IMG/VR virus record: IMGVR_UViG_3300050343_000013
Span: 1 to 57,558 of that record
Direction: 5' to 3' (one strand)
DNA from: a virus
Length of the DNA stretch: 57,558 nt
Under the pieces are notes generated by a model. That model ran no database searches, was not told the DNA's origin, and saw only the letters and a program-made list of their open reading frames with translations. Shown here in pieces: positions 31,775 through 41,631 of the stretch; positions within the stretch are counted from its first letter, which is position 1; each line of letters begins with the position of its first letter. The position numbers and the translations under genes were made by a program.

Positions 31775-32029
31775 TTAGTATTCCCATTCCCGTTTTCTTC
31801 TGGGATCTAGAACATCCCTAGCCTTTAAATGGCCTTCAAGGTACATAGCTCTCTCTACCCTGTCCAGAGAGTACTTTATACCTGTATCATTTCTTATTTT
31901 TTCTCTTATGTAGAACACATCGGATCTAGGGATGTGCACTCTACGGAGTTTACCTTCGTCTTCTGAAGCTAATGCCCTGTAAAATTCCTCTACGACATTG
32001 TCAGAAGAGTACATTGCTGGTTTCTTCAT
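31775..32029 (-). CDS. First gene of the late arm, conserved hypothetical (84 aa)
   Basis: The protein contains RVHIPRSDVFYIREKIRNDT, then YSLDRVERAMYLEGHLKARD and VLDPRRKREWEY. The HIPRSDVFYIREKI...TG..YSLDR.ERAMYLEG line is a conserved phage protein of unknown function. The ATG at 32029 lies only three bases from the -10 of the promoter at 32033-32061, so translation may begin on a leaderless message or at the second ATG (32014). It heads the lysis operon. Confidence 0.65.
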   Translation of the reverse strand: MKKPAMYSSDNVVEEFYRALASEDEGKLRRVHIPRSDVFYIREKIRNDTGIKYSLDRVERAMYLEGHLKARDVLDPRRKREWEY

Positions 32030-32032
32030 CTA

Positions 32033-32061
32033 GTTATACCTAATTTTTTGGGTAAAGTCAA
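32033..32061 (-). promoter_or_regulatory. Late promoter of the lysis operon
   Basis: On the minus strand TTGACT (32061-32056), a 17-base spacer and TATAAC (32038-32033) make a strong sigma-70 promoter match driving the leftward arm. The -10 is three bases from the first ATG, which implies a leaderless or very short leader. The palindromic sites at 32112-32184 lie just upstream, where an activator or repressor could act. Confidence 0.6.
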
Positions 32062-32078
32062 CACTTTTTAAGTGGGAC

Positions 32079-32184
32079 GACAAAAAAAGTTTAGATTTTG
32101 TCTTAAAGTATACTTAAAGTTACCTTAAGTATATAATAACTATTAATATATTAGTAATAATTAAAACTTAAAGTTACTTTAAGT
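32079..32184. promoter_or_regulatory. Operator-like palindrome cluster (ACTTAAAGT family) in the divergent region
   Basis: A perfect 19-bp palindrome ACTTAAAGTTACTTTAAGT lies at 32166-32184, an imperfect copy (one mismatch) at 32112-32130 and an extra half site at 32102-32110. A separate inverted repeat GACAAAA (32079-32085)/TTTTGTC (32096-32102) abuts the cluster. The reverse-oriented perfect palindrome ACTTTAAGTAACTTAAAGT recurs at 38501-38519, so this is a shared site family, probably for a phage regulator. Confidence 0.65.
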
Positions 32185-32405
32185 ATTCTTTATGTAATAC
32201 TATAAGTAATTATACAGTATATTGCAGCCGAAGTCAACTACTATTTTTAATTTATTTTAAAATAGTTGTAATTAACATTTTATAATCATTAAATTTGGGT
32301 TAACGTGCGACATTTTGTCCAGAACTAAAAAATCCCATCTCTGTCATTGGCTATATATACATACCACGCACCCCCACCTGGCGCATGCCCCCCTCCTGTT
32401 CAAAA

Positions 32406-32481
32406 ACATATTCAATTTTCTGCATGGAACTATCATATTCACATATTCGAATATGTAACATATTGTTTTTATTGAATATGT
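32406..32481. promoter_or_regulatory. ACATATTC palindrome cluster
   Basis: A perfect 16-bp palindrome ACATATTCGAATATGT lies at 32441-32456. It is flanked by half sites ACATATTC (32406-32413), CATATTC (32434-32440), ACATATTG (32458-32465) and GAATATGT (32474-32481). The spacing of several half sites on one face suggests cooperative binding by a dimeric regulator or initiator. An inverted repeat TGTAATA (32479-32485)/TATTACA (32494-32500) follows. Confidence 0.55.
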
Positions 32482-32518
32482 AATACAATACACTATTACA
32501 TTGCCGCTGTTATAGTAT

Positions 32519-32627
32519 AACATAACGTGATACTTGCGAGTGATTCGCAATAGCAAAAGGTTTATGTACACTGGAACATAACGTGAACAAATAAACGAGC
32601 TGGTCACACAAAGAGAACAAAACGTGA
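32519..32627 (+). repeat. Iteron-like direct repeats (AACATAACGTGA)
   Basis: Exact copies lie at 32519-32530 and 32575-32586, and a third with one mismatch (AACAAAACGTGA) at 32616-32627. Spacings are 56 and 41 bases. Short direct repeats upstream of an AT-rich tract in a divergent region resemble iterons of a replication origin. No initiator gene was recognised. Confidence 0.45.
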
Positions 32628-32673
32628 ATACTATCATGTTTCCTGTGGGTGAATAAATGTGCCTACTGAGAAA

Positions 32674-32835
32674 GTTTCCTCAGAGGAAACGTAGCCGAAT
32701 ATAGGCTAAAATCTAAAAGTAAATTTAAATGTAGAGCCGATATAATAGCCATACAATCAGGTTAAATTTTAGCTAACAGCTGTACCCTAACCTTCGGGAA
32801 ACCTACTGGTGGCTCTTAGGTTTATTCTCAGGGTA
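32674..32835 (+). ncRNA. Structured RNA candidate, element A
   Basis: Visible helices: GTTTCCTC (32674-32681) with GAGGAAAC (32683-32690), and an outer stem TACCCT (32783-32788) with AGGGTA (32830-32835). The outer stem encloses a CCTTCGG tetraloop hairpin (32791-32797) and AAACCTA (32799-32805) with TAGGTTT (32817-32823), a three-way junction. GGCT/AGCC and ATAT/ATAT pairs between about 32699 and 32743 may add a further arm. The strand is chosen because the downstream terminator and early genes are on plus. No known RNA family is assigned. Confidence 0.4.
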
Positions 32836-32904
32836 AATTCAACTATTTGAATATGATATATTTCGACTATATTTGTGTCGTAAATAGACTATTTTGATGT
32901 CGTT

Positions 32905-32962
32905 TTTGTACTAAGAAAATTAATTTAATTTTTTTTTATATTTTTCCTTGTCTTTTAAAATA
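32905..32962. other. AT-rich tract, possible unwinding element
   Basis: The stretch is almost entirely A and T, with a run of nine T, between the repeats and element B. With the iteron-like repeats upstream it fits a DNA-unwinding element of an origin, but AT-rich promoters give the same picture. Confidence 0.35.
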
Positions 32963-32982
32963 TCGAGCTACCTTTAACTTAT

Positions 32983-33408
32983 CGGGTGGTTGAAATCAGA
33001 GTGAGATTTCAGAGTTAGACCGCACCCACGCTATTTGACATAAATTCTTTAGGACTTCGGTAGCACCTAAAGCCCATAATATAAGACTACCCGTTTCTGG
33101 AAAGTGGAATTGACAACTCCAACTCTAGGAAATGCGCCAATAGGACTATCAAAGTATATATGCGATAATTGCTTTGATATTAGATCGTGTTTAAAAGGGG
33201 TCTTTAATCTGAAGGGGTAGGCATGTGATCAAAAAACGTAGCATGGAAGGGTAACAGTCTTAAATAACAATGCGGTATAGGCAAACTTTCTATATCAAGT
33301 GGTTATTTTGTTTGAGCCATTAACTAAGGTTTAAACAGTATGGATATTCACCAATAAGTTAAAAAGTTTTAGGGCATTAAGTTTTATACTTGATGCCCTA
33401 TGTTATAC
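32983..33408 (+). ncRNA. Structured RNA candidate, element B, ending in a terminator
   Basis: No ORF is present, but many stems are. GGGTG (32984-32988)/CACCC (33023-33027) encloses TGAAATC (32991-32997)/GATTTCA (33005-33011). CTTTAGG (33047-33053)/CCTAAAG (33066-33072) is capped by an AC-TTCG-GT loop. Long-range CTACCC (33087-33092)/GGGTAG (33215-33220) encloses TATCAAAG (33147-33154)/CTTTGATA (33172-33179). GATCGTGT (33183-33190) pairs with the segment at 33223-33230 using wobble pairs. The terminator hairpin closes it. I infer a non-coding RNA of about 430 bases, or up to 750 with element A. No Rfam family is assigned. Confidence 0.45.
33371..33408 (+). terminator. Rho-independent terminator-like hairpin
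   Basis: AGGGCATTAAG (33371-33381) pairs with CTTGATGCCCT (33389-33399), eleven pairs with one G-U, around a seven-base loop. It is followed after a few bases by CTTTT. It would end the RNA candidate before the promoter region of the first early gene. Confidence 0.6.
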
Positions 33409-33494
33409 TTTTAATGTACATTTTACAGTGTGCATTAGCGGTATAACATTAGGTTATATCGACAACGTAAACTCATATAAAATTGGAGATTAAA

Positions 33495-34025
33495 ATGAGT
33501 ATTTCAAACATAGTAAACAACTTCTCACGTAACTTAGGTAATGGTCAAAAAATGGGAGAGGCATTACTTGACGCTATCAATCATGCAATCAAGACTGGTG
33601 ATACTTCTATTATCTCAGTTCTATTTATGAAAGTTAATGACAAAAAAGATAGCAACGCATTATCTGGATTAACTGCTACTGTAAGAGCCGTTTATATCGG
33701 TGCAAACATCACTACTGATAAAAAGACAAATCGCACCATTGTTAAAACCAAAAACGCTACATTATCAAATAGTGCAGTTGAAGTATTAAATCAATTGGTA
33801 GTAGATAGCGTATCAATGCGAGGCAACAAATGGGCTAAAGCTTTCAATACTGAGACTGAGCAAAAACCAGTGGATGTCAAAAAACGTGCGGAAAAATTCG
33901 TAAAAGATAATCCAGAGCTAGTTAATGCTTACATTCACGCACTACAGCAAGCTCAAAAGGTTGCACAAAATGCGGCTAGTCTAGAAAAAGTTGCCACTGA
34001 TGCAGCTCTACTTGCTGCTCAGTAA
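33495..34025 (+). CDS. First early gene, unknown function (176 aa)
   Basis: The start ATG at 33495 is chosen over an upstream in-frame TTG because GGAGA lies seven bases before it. The protein begins MSISNIVNNFSRNLGNGQKM and contains NALSGLTATVRAVYIGANIT and NSAVEVLNQLVVDSVSMRGN, with an Ala/Gln-rich helical C-terminus (AYIHALQQAQKVAQNAASLE). It has no membrane segment or known motif. As the promoter-proximal gene of the early arm with a terminator right after, it is probably expressed highly and separately, like a host-takeover protein; that role is inferred. Confidence 0.7.
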   Translation: MSISNIVNNFSRNLGNGQKMGEALLDAINHAIKTGDTSIISVLFMKVNDKKDSNALSGLTATVRAVYIGANITTDKKTNRTIVKTKNATLSNSAVEVLNQLVVDSVSMRGNKWAKAFNTETEQKPVDVKKRAEKFVKDNPELVNAYIHALQQAQKVAQNAASLEKVATDAALLAAQ

Positions 34026-38591: not shown

Positions 38592-38645
38592 ATGGAAATA
38601 GATGACCCACATGATGACTGCTCACATTGGATAGGAAAGATATGA
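38592..38645 (+). CDS. 17-residue leader peptide before the integrase
   Basis: The ATG at 38592 has a perfect AGGAGG 7-8 bases upstream and the frame encodes MEIDDPHDDCSHWIGKI. Its TGA overlaps the integrase ATG as ATGA. The very strong ribosome site belongs to this mini-gene and not to the integrase, which points to translational coupling or attenuation of recombinase synthesis. Confidence 0.5.
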   Translation: MEIDDPHDDCSHWIGKI

Positions 38646-39526
38646 AATTTAATAAAGCTGTAGACAAGTATCTCCACACTCGTCAGTTCAACTCTCTCTC
38701 TAGTTCCTCGCAAAAGAACTACGAGTGTTGTCTGTTAGCTTTCTGTCGTATGTCTGTTATGGGAAGAAAACTTGGTAATGTAAACTTAGATAAGTTGAGT
38801 ATAGCCATGTGCTCTGAGATGTACGATACGTGGGAGCTGGAAACATCCACCTCTAATGCAAACCATAACGCTAGGGTGTTTTCAGTTCTCATTAATTATC
38901 TTATTGCAATGGAGATAATGATGCTTAACCCAATGGCTAGAGTTAAGAAACGCCACAGTGAACCTCGCTCTGTCGTCTGGACACATGATCAAGTACTATC
39001 ATTTCTAGACGTAGCATTCACAAAGTTTGAGTGGCGTAACATCGGACTGATTGTCCTGATGTGTTATGAGTGGGGTCAACGCCCAATAGATATTCGTAAT
39101 CTAACTTGGAATGATGTTGACCTTGAGAAGAGAGTTGTAGAAATCAAACAGACTAAACGTGGAGCTGAGGTAGAATTACCAATACCTGACAACTTAGTTG
39201 GTATGCTCACTGAACAGAAAGGTGACTGGGACTTCCAAGAATATGTAGTACCTCACCACAGAGCCTCAGATGGTGCGTACAGACCGCTAACAGTTCACCA
39301 GATGTCTGCACTACTGGCAGAGGTTAAAGCTCTTGCAGGGCTTCCTGATGATCTGAGGGTGGGTGATCTACGTAAGACTGCCATTGTTCAGATGATTGAG
39401 GGTGAGGTAGATCACTTGGCTATTCAATCTGTGACTGGTCATAAACATGTTAGTAGTTTAAATCCGTACAATAAATTCAGTTTAAAAACCGCAAAGTCTG
39501 CATTGGAGAGGAGACAAAGGCAATGA
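38642..39526 (+). CDS. int: Tyrosine recombinase/integrase (294 aa)
   Basis: An N-terminal SAM-like core-binding part (residues 1-105) is followed by the catalytic domain. Arg147 lies in CYEWGQRPIDIRNLTW, Lys172 in VEIKQTKRGAEV, Arg244 in VGDLRKTAIVQM, His267 in QSVTGHKHVSS and the nucleophile Tyr276 in SLNPYNKFS. The first His of the HxxR box is replaced by Gly241, a change that I have also seen in this type of marine recombinase. It could integrate the phage or resolve genome multimers. No attP core or tRNA match was found beside it. The start is taken from the ATGA overlap with the leader gene. Confidence 0.85.
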   Translation: MKFNKAVDKYLHTRQFNSLSSSSQKNYECCLLAFCRMSVMGRKLGNVNLDKLSIAMCSEMYDTWELETSTSNANHNARVFSVLINYLIAMEIMMLNPMARVKKRHSEPRSVVWTHDQVLSFLDVAFTKFEWRNIGLIVLMCYEWGQRPIDIRNLTWNDVDLEKRVVEIKQTKRGAEVELPIPDNLVGMLTEQKGDWDFQEYVVPHHRASDGAYRPLTVHQMSALLAEVKALAGLPDDLRVGDLRKTAIVQMIEGEVDHLAIQSVTGHKHVSSLNPYNKFSLKTAKSALERRQRQ

Positions 39527-40594: not shown

Positions 40595-40942
40595 ATGGGT
40601 AATAAATGGAACTACATTGGTACAAATTCTAAAGGAGAGGCTAAGTTTAAAAGGTATACTGAAGAAACATTAGAGTTTGTAAAAGATTGCTTAGACTCAA
40701 AAGGTATTGCTTATTTTGTACATGAAGCACAAAACCTAATTTTTATATATAAAGAAAAAGAACCAGAGAATAGATACAGCAGTCGGTATTCTTATTACTA
40801 TACAACAGGTAGATGGGGAAATGATAAACGTAGAAAACATTATCACTGTGATGGTATAGAACACTTTTTATCCAAGTATTACCAAACAGCAGAAGAAGAA
40901 AAGAAATACTGGGATTCCATAAAAGAAAAGGAAACAGGATGA
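40595..40942 (+). CDS. Hypothetical early protein (115 aa)
   Basis: The product is polar and Tyr/Lys-rich, containing ETLEFVKDCLDSKGIAYFVH, IFIYKEKEPENRYSSRYSYY and HYHCDGIEHFLSKYYQTAEE. There is no membrane segment. It ends by overlapping the ThyX start (ATGA). The family is unknown. Confidence 0.55.
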   Translation: MGNKWNYIGTNSKGEAKFKRYTEETLEFVKDCLDSKGIAYFVHEAQNLIFIYKEKEPENRYSSRYSYYYTTGRWGNDKRRKHYHCDGIEHFLSKYYQTAEEEKKYWDSIKEKETG

Positions 40943-41631
40943 TTGAAGTAACATACGTTGACCACATGGGTAGTGACTTGTCCGTGGTCAATGCAGCTAG
41001 GGTTAGCTTTGGTAAAAAGTCCGACTGGATGCCACGAGTTCACAATGGTGAGCAGTTAGTGTTGACACCCAAGGATGCCAAGCTAATATCCTACTTAGCT
41101 AAACATCAGCACAAGTCTCCGTTCAACCATGCGTTTGCTACGTTTCATATCAAAGCTCCTATCTTTGTAGCACGTCAGTTACAAAAGCATGAGTACATGC
41201 CTTGGAATGAGATCAGTAGACGTTACGTTGACAGTGAGCCAGAGTTTTACCAACCAGATGTTTGGCGTGGACGTAGTGCTGATAAGAAACAAGGTAGTGA
41301 GGGTGAAGTTACTATGGTAGACATAAGCGGCAGATTTCCTCTATCACCCAGAACAGTCCAAACTTTGTCAGATGGTAAAACTTTAGAAGCATACCGCAAT
41401 CTTATTGATGCAGGTGTAGCACCTGAACAAGCACGTATGGTACTGCCACAGTCTATGATGACCGAGTGGTATTGGTCAGGTTCACTGTATGCCTTTGCAA
41501 AGATGTGTGGACTACGTCTTAAACCTGATACCCAGTATGAGACTAGGCTTGTGGCAGAACAAATAGAAGATAAGATGACGGAGTTATTTCCTGAGTCATG
41601 GACAGCATTGAGGGCATATGATGACAGATGA
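40939..41631 (+). CDS. thyX: Flavin-dependent thymidylate synthase (230 aa)
   Basis: The product makes dTMP from dUMP using FAD, NADPH and methylene-tetrahydrofolate. It contains VNAARVSFGK, then KHQHKSPFNHAFATFHIKAP, FVARQLQKHEYMPWNEISRR and YVDSEPEFY, and later EQARMVLPQSMMTEWYWSGS. ARQ..KH.....NE.SRRYV is the phage form of the ThyX motif that positions dUMP and flavin. Its place before the replication enzymes and with RNR shows that the phage makes its own deoxynucleotides. It is full-length and complete. Confidence 0.92.
   Translation: MIEVTYVDHMGSDLSVVNAARVSFGKKSDWMPRVHNGEQLVLTPKDAKLISYLAKHQHKSPFNHAFATFHIKAPIFVARQLQKHEYMPWNEISRRYVDSEPEFYQPDVWRGRSADKKQGSEGEVTMVDISGRFPLSPRTVQTLSDGKTLEAYRNLIDAGVAPEQARMVLPQSMMTEWYWSGSLYAFAKMCGLRLKPDTQYETRLVAEQIEDKMTELFPESWTALRAYDDR

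Follow-up and report, generated by a model that had tools for sequence, protein, structure and literature searches.

Positions 32970-33400 (plus strand) of the phage genome analysed here almost certainly encode a conserved, multi-domain structured RNA that belongs to a family absent from Rfam. We use the term window for this genome at its full length, a virus record of 57,558 bases from IMG/VR. The RNA is ~430 nt long in the window and up to ~520 nt in relatives, and it lies in the gap between the two divergent arms of the genome (32030-33494). The first-pass annotation had proposed a large structured RNA of ~750 nt at 32660-33408; covariation among relatives upholds this proposal for ~32970-33400 and does not rise above shuffled alignments in 32660-32960. 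Few known RNA families reach this size and complexity, and the phage-borne examples GOLLD and ROOL have no assigned function. The family described here is carried by members of an abundant group of marine phages; it lies unannotated in their control region, where annotation by genes only has overlooked it.

The carrier phage and the gap between its arms

Because gene1, the first gene of the left arm, has homologues in the Roseobacter phages CRP-1, CRP-2, CRP-9, CRP-13, CRP-207, CRP-345, and CRP-603 as well as in Puniceispirillum phage HMO-2011, we assign the window to the HMO-2011-type marine phages (PMC6918029, PMC9038755, PMC8528129). The left arm contains tail protein genes, and the right arm codes for a DNA polymerase, a primase-helicase, an integrase (38627-39526), and a thymidylate synthase (40939-41631). 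The phage may be temperate, a lifestyle reported for CRP-3 (PMC6918029).

The sole open reading frame of note in the gap is an unsupported one of 97 amino acids on the minus strand (32344-32637), and 32660-33408 is, as had been stated, without a convincing gene, all of its open reading frames being at most 38 amino acids long. Likewise, no tRNA genes adjoin the RNA: ARAGORN found neither tRNA nor tmRNA genes in the whole window or in 18 related loci, and Rfam gave no match to either kind. Comparison of the gap DNA with phage records returned chance matches only. The region 32600-33410 has a folding energy of -202.8 kcal/mol compared to -178.2 kcal/mol for dinucleotide shuffles (z = -3.8; 0 of 20 shuffles as good). 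Because coding stretches of related loci often also fold better than their shuffles, we did not take the folding energy of the gap as proof and compared relatives instead.

Covariation among related loci and the parts of the RNA

A search of IMG/VR with gene1 identified 459 relatives, of which 80 loci were retrieved, and a search with gene2, the first gene of the right arm, gave 22 loci. A profile of the 300 bases preceding gene2 recovers a common element from almost every gene2-type contig, and wider profiles are concordant, yielding homologues of the RNA in ~20 related contigs; in every contig holding both ends, the RNA lies 5' of gene2. By sequence we divided the RNAs into group A (the window, L084-L088, and L103), group B (L089, L091, L093, L094, L097, L099, L101, and L105), and group C (L090, L096, L098, L100, and L104). 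Searches with RNA motifs only returned gene2-type contigs again, save for five matches that profiles did not confirm as this RNA. The features that emerged from these comparisons are collected in Table 1.

Table 1. Positions and support of the features in and around the inter-arm RNA
Feature	Position	Strand	Support or remark
gene1, first left-arm gene	31775..32029	-	Marker of the HMO-2011-type clade; 459 IMG/VR relatives
First part of the interval reported earlier	32660..32960	+	Close relatives only; AT/T-rich spacer at its end
Structured RNA core	32970..33400 (approximate ends)	+	Covarying homologues in the corresponding place of ~20 contigs
5' hairpin TGAAATC-AGAGTGA-GATTTCA	32991..33011	+	Window and closest relative L084
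Conserved motif CACGCTATTTGACA	33027..33040	+	Kept in relatives of the RNA
Long-range helix, 5' strand CTACC	33087..33091	+	Pairs with 33216-33220
Long-range helix, 3' strand GGTAG	33216..33220	+	Pairs with 33087-33091
Three-way junction domain	33250..33352	+	Closing stem 33250-33260 with 33342-33352; 33 pairs, 22 double-changed
Long hairpin of the junction, AAATAACAATGCGGTATAG ... CTATATCAAGTGGTTATTT	33262..33308	+	17 pairs, 11 double-changed
Second hairpin of the junction, conserved loop CC-ATTAACTAA-GG	33309..33337	+	9 pairs, 7 double-changed
3' hairpin TAGGGCATTAAG...CTTGATGCCCTA, weak T tail	33370..33400	+	Terminator-like scan match; compensatory changes in relatives
Further hairpin AATGTACA...TGTGCATT, between RNA and gene2	33413..33436	+	Inverted repeat, compensatory in close relatives
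Inverted repeat CGGTATAAC-ATTAG-GTTATATCG	33439..33461	.	Conservation limited to close relatives
gene2 (P0001), first right-arm gene, linked to the RNA	33495..34025	+	No PHROG or significant Pfam family

In both the 3' and the 5' domain, covariation in the homologues exceeds that in shuffled alignments. Specifically, in the 3' domain (33250-33352), which is the most conserved domain of the RNA, 22 of the 33 pairs changed on both sides among 16 sequences while 96.6% of the cells remained paired; none of 500 shuffles did as well, and when the partner strand was shifted by one to three columns, pairing fell to 34-44%. Compared to column-shuffled alignments, this domain has 27 covarying pairs (shuffled mean 4.8, maximum 11; z = -17.7). 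In the 5' domain, analysed in group B (seven relatives), 37 of 73 pairs changed on both sides and 39 pairs covary (shuffled mean 11.4, maximum 20; z = -15.7). No excess of covariation over shuffles was seen in the coding stretches of gene1 and gene2 or in the left, palindrome-rich portion of the gap; one coding control (T3) came out slightly above (18 vs at most 16), and the shuffled-alignment test is therefore imperfect. Because the wobble pairs in the 3' domain comprise 65 G-U but only 2 A-C, the RNA is assigned to the plus strand. Covariation beyond shuffled and coding controls together with a strand bias of the wobbles is a general criterion for a conserved structured RNA, and both were observed here.

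The same data bear on the idea that DNA-level control elements, i.e., operators or protein-binding palindromes, mimic RNA stems. True palindromes are present in the inter-arm region, e.g., at 32104-32192 and 33439-33461; operators, however, keep their letters, whereas here the two arms of a helix vary jointly among several pair types, and neither the strongly strand-biased wobbles nor the lack of covariation in the palindrome-rich left gap agrees with such elements. We therefore consider this explanation to be extremely improbable. It is refuted for 33250-33352 and for the long-range helix, while 33439-33461 could be either an RNA hairpin or a DNA operator.

The long-range pairing of 33087-33092 with 33215-33220 noticed in the first pass recurs in relatives. 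In segments aligned by eye from 18 sequences (L084, which has a different form, was excluded), 90 of 90 pairs are standard, and the pattern NNACC/GGTNN is kept in 18 of 18 sequences from groups A, B, and C in five letter combinations, a result that 0 of 20,000 shuffles reached. An unbiased scan of group B recovered the same helix; it is absent when the window by itself is folded to minimum energy. The perfect stems listed previously at 32991-33011, 33047-33072, and 33147-33179 do occur in the sequence, and because the first of these varies little, it counts as weak evidence. The motif TATTTGA[CA]A is located ~510 to 605 bases before gene2 in relatives of the RNA (-510 to -605) and at -463 in the window, and TATTTGA is also found 5' of other first genes (L015, L069, L044, and L065). 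The loop of the second junction hairpin reads CCTATTGATACGG in many relatives. The long junction hairpin has tip insertions in relatives; insertions at one helix tip that leave the rest of the fold intact are seen at L103:3605-3910, L085:3612-3903, and L098:1961-2230.

The 5' end of the core was inferred from the onset of conservation in relatives, and its 3' end was set at the hairpin before gene2. Upstream of the core, 32660-32960 can be aligned in four close relatives only (L001, L005, L006, and L009) and is absent from L002, L008, and L010 and from groups B and C. With 8 covarying pairs vs 7.8 in shuffled alignments, we rejected this stretch as a part of the RNA, and relatives do not retain the three-way junction that had been drawn at 32783-32835.

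Distribution of the RNA and its linkage to gene2

At gathering score, neither the window nor 35 related loci had a match in Rfam, and a permissive search of 32030-33500 gave weak matches to microRNA, snoRNA, greA-leader, and rli43 families that lie far below the gathering scores. Thus, the earlier suggestion of a GOLLD- or ROOL-like RNA or a new class finds no GOLLD, ROOL, or OLE match in Rfam, and what stands is a conserved RNA outside of Rfam. The open-access journal papers searched on HMO-2011-type phages make no mention of such an RNA.

A covariance model (R1) trained on 16 sequences finds the RNA outside of its training set in L098, L103, L085, and L090 (89-124 bits), all four of which were already known by sequence similarity before the model search, and in L150 and L151 (124 and 127 bits), in both cases immediately 5' of gene2. 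R1 detected nothing convincing in L102 and L152, the gene2 of which is among the most distant, or in lineages with other first genes, and it did not find the RNA in eight cultured HMO-2011-type phages. The described isolates of this type have an unannotated gap of ~0.9-1.5 kb at the same place, and those tested are without this exact RNA; because isolates grow on culturable hosts, expression, knock-out, and structure work is feasible.

The RNA is present in all gene2-type contigs except the most distant, and RNA and gene2 nearly always co-occur. The AlphaFold model of the gene2 product (pLDDT 85) has no fold match in the PDB and only weak matches to uncharacterised phage proteins, and searches for gene2 in phage records and in bacterial genomes returned none. 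In L151, a C-type RNA is retained next to a gene2 that shares only 46% identity with the gene2 of L100. The gene2 types found beside the RNA have a mutual identity of only 38-46%, from which we conclude that the RNA is not tailored to a single coding sequence.

Among lineages, the first right-arm gene is swapped, with several unrelated types; some first genes share their C-terminal part only (L015; L153-L157), which suggests a modular first-gene protein. In the T1 lineage (L044, L065, L046, and L066), which has an unrelated first gene, the last 300 bases before this gene contain a covarying RNA with 28 covarying pairs (shuffled mean 10.8, maximum 16) and without a match to R1.

Transcription and possible modes of action

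Of the terminator previously assigned to 33371-33399, the hairpin (33370-33400), with its compensatory changes, is real, while its tail, TGTTATACTT, is not that of a clean intrinsic terminator. We rejected a canonical terminator here: there is no proper T tract, and most relatives have a further hairpin before gene2, groups B and C having other hairpins at the place of 33413-33436. No consensus sigma-70 promoter common to relatives was found 5' of the RNA or for gene2, and the eight sequences of group B have no promoter-like site from the RNA to gene2. Because of the weak T tail, the extra hairpin, and the lack of a promoter before gene2, co-transcription is favoured and the RNA may be transcribed together with gene2. 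Immediately 5' of the RNA, close relatives keep an AT-rich segment (32919-32962) that includes nine consecutive T; in relatives, the corresponding stretch is followed by TTGAC or TTGTC, which is possibly part of a promoter.

In our working model, a promoter in the AT-rich spacer adjoining the 5' end of the RNA would drive rightward transcription, and the RNA would come first in the right-arm transcript. It would fold into a 5' domain, a domain closed by 33087-33091/33216-33220, and the three-way junction, giving a compact multi-helix body, and termination or cleavage at the hairpins of 33370-33461 would produce its 3' end. Made early, the free RNA would act in the infected cell through its fold, alone or with proteins, in assembly, as a scaffold, or by binding host factors, similarly to GOLLD and ROOL. 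We regard such a free, trans-acting RNA as the most likely mode, rather than an RNA that regulates gene2 only, with the two modes close; our confidence in the free mode falls a little short of even, and a structured RNA and the free mode, taken jointly, we consider a matter of equal chances. The free mode is favoured because of the size of the RNA, its many conserved loops, the T1 RNA in front of an unrelated gene, and the L151 RNA, and disfavoured because of the weak terminator, the lack of a shared promoter, the linkage between RNA and gene2, and the cultured phages in which R1 found nothing. That it represents a new class of large phage RNAs acting in trans (by RNA-only assembly, as scaffold, or as ribozyme), diverged or exchanged forms of which lie between the arms throughout the HMO-2011-type phages, we consider rather unlikely.

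Alternatively, the RNA could be a long structured 5' leader that acts in cis on the translation of gene2 or the stability of its mRNA, or that modifies RNA polymerase for the right arm in the manner of put or nut sites, a reading that we hold tentatively as a serious competitor. As predicted for a leader, the RNA is on the same strand as the first right-arm gene and at a constant place directly 5' of it; the weak terminator, the extra conserved hairpins, the absence of a common promoter ahead of gene2, and the tight co-occurrence with gene2 also agree with a leader, as do the structured RNAs that precede other first genes in sister lineages. The put sites of HK022 and nut sites are likewise structured RNAs located where an early phage operon begins; put, however, is ~70 nt long, and the RNA described here, with several domains, 430-520 nt, and many conserved loops, far exceeds put sites or usual leaders. 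Moreover, its association with such divergent gene2 types argues against a leader.

We also considered that the RNA might be a primer or form an R-loop that starts DNA synthesis between the arms, in principle as ColE1 RNA II does. The location between the arms, the AT-rich stretch, a minimum of the cumulative GC skew at this place, and the polymerase and primase-helicase encoded by the phage would fit such a function. Because the skew tracks gene direction on both sides, however, it is no evidence of an origin; a primer-like 3' end was not found and the phage has a primase, and we consider an origin RNA to be improbable.

Known phage RNAs offer partial parallels. The phi29 packaging RNA is phage-encoded, structured, and works untranslated; it has 174 nt, is encoded at the genome end, and is tied to the packaging motor. 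The RNA described here is likewise phage-encoded and structured, but we saw no link to a packaging motor. GOLLD and ROOL often lie near tRNA islands in phages, and a feature of both is a homo-oligomeric nanocage. GOLLD, which occurs in phages and prophages and also in water samples, is a large ornate RNA that has no assigned function and is conserved in its 3' region and more variable in its 5' region (PMC12286853). The RNA described here is similarly large, phage-borne, and most conserved at its 3' end; it differs in its size (430-520 nt vs 800 nt or more for GOLLD), in having no Rfam match and no adjoining tRNA genes, and in its position at the head of the right arm. ROOL is phage-borne, multi-branched, and several hundred nt long (659 nt for the solved one), also without an assigned function (PMC12286853); the RNA described here shares these properties but has neither an Rfam match nor a tRNA island.

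The left part of the gap contains further conserved elements. Inverted and repeated elements (TATACTTAAAGTTACCTTAAGTATA and copies) at 32104-32192 adjoin gene1, are kept in many relatives, and look like repressor operators. A stretch at 32326-32393 (GTGCGACATTTTGTCC...CTGTCATTGGCTATATATAC) recurs in similar form in many gene1-type contigs, among them contigs whose first right-arm gene is a different one, and is perhaps a left-arm promoter.
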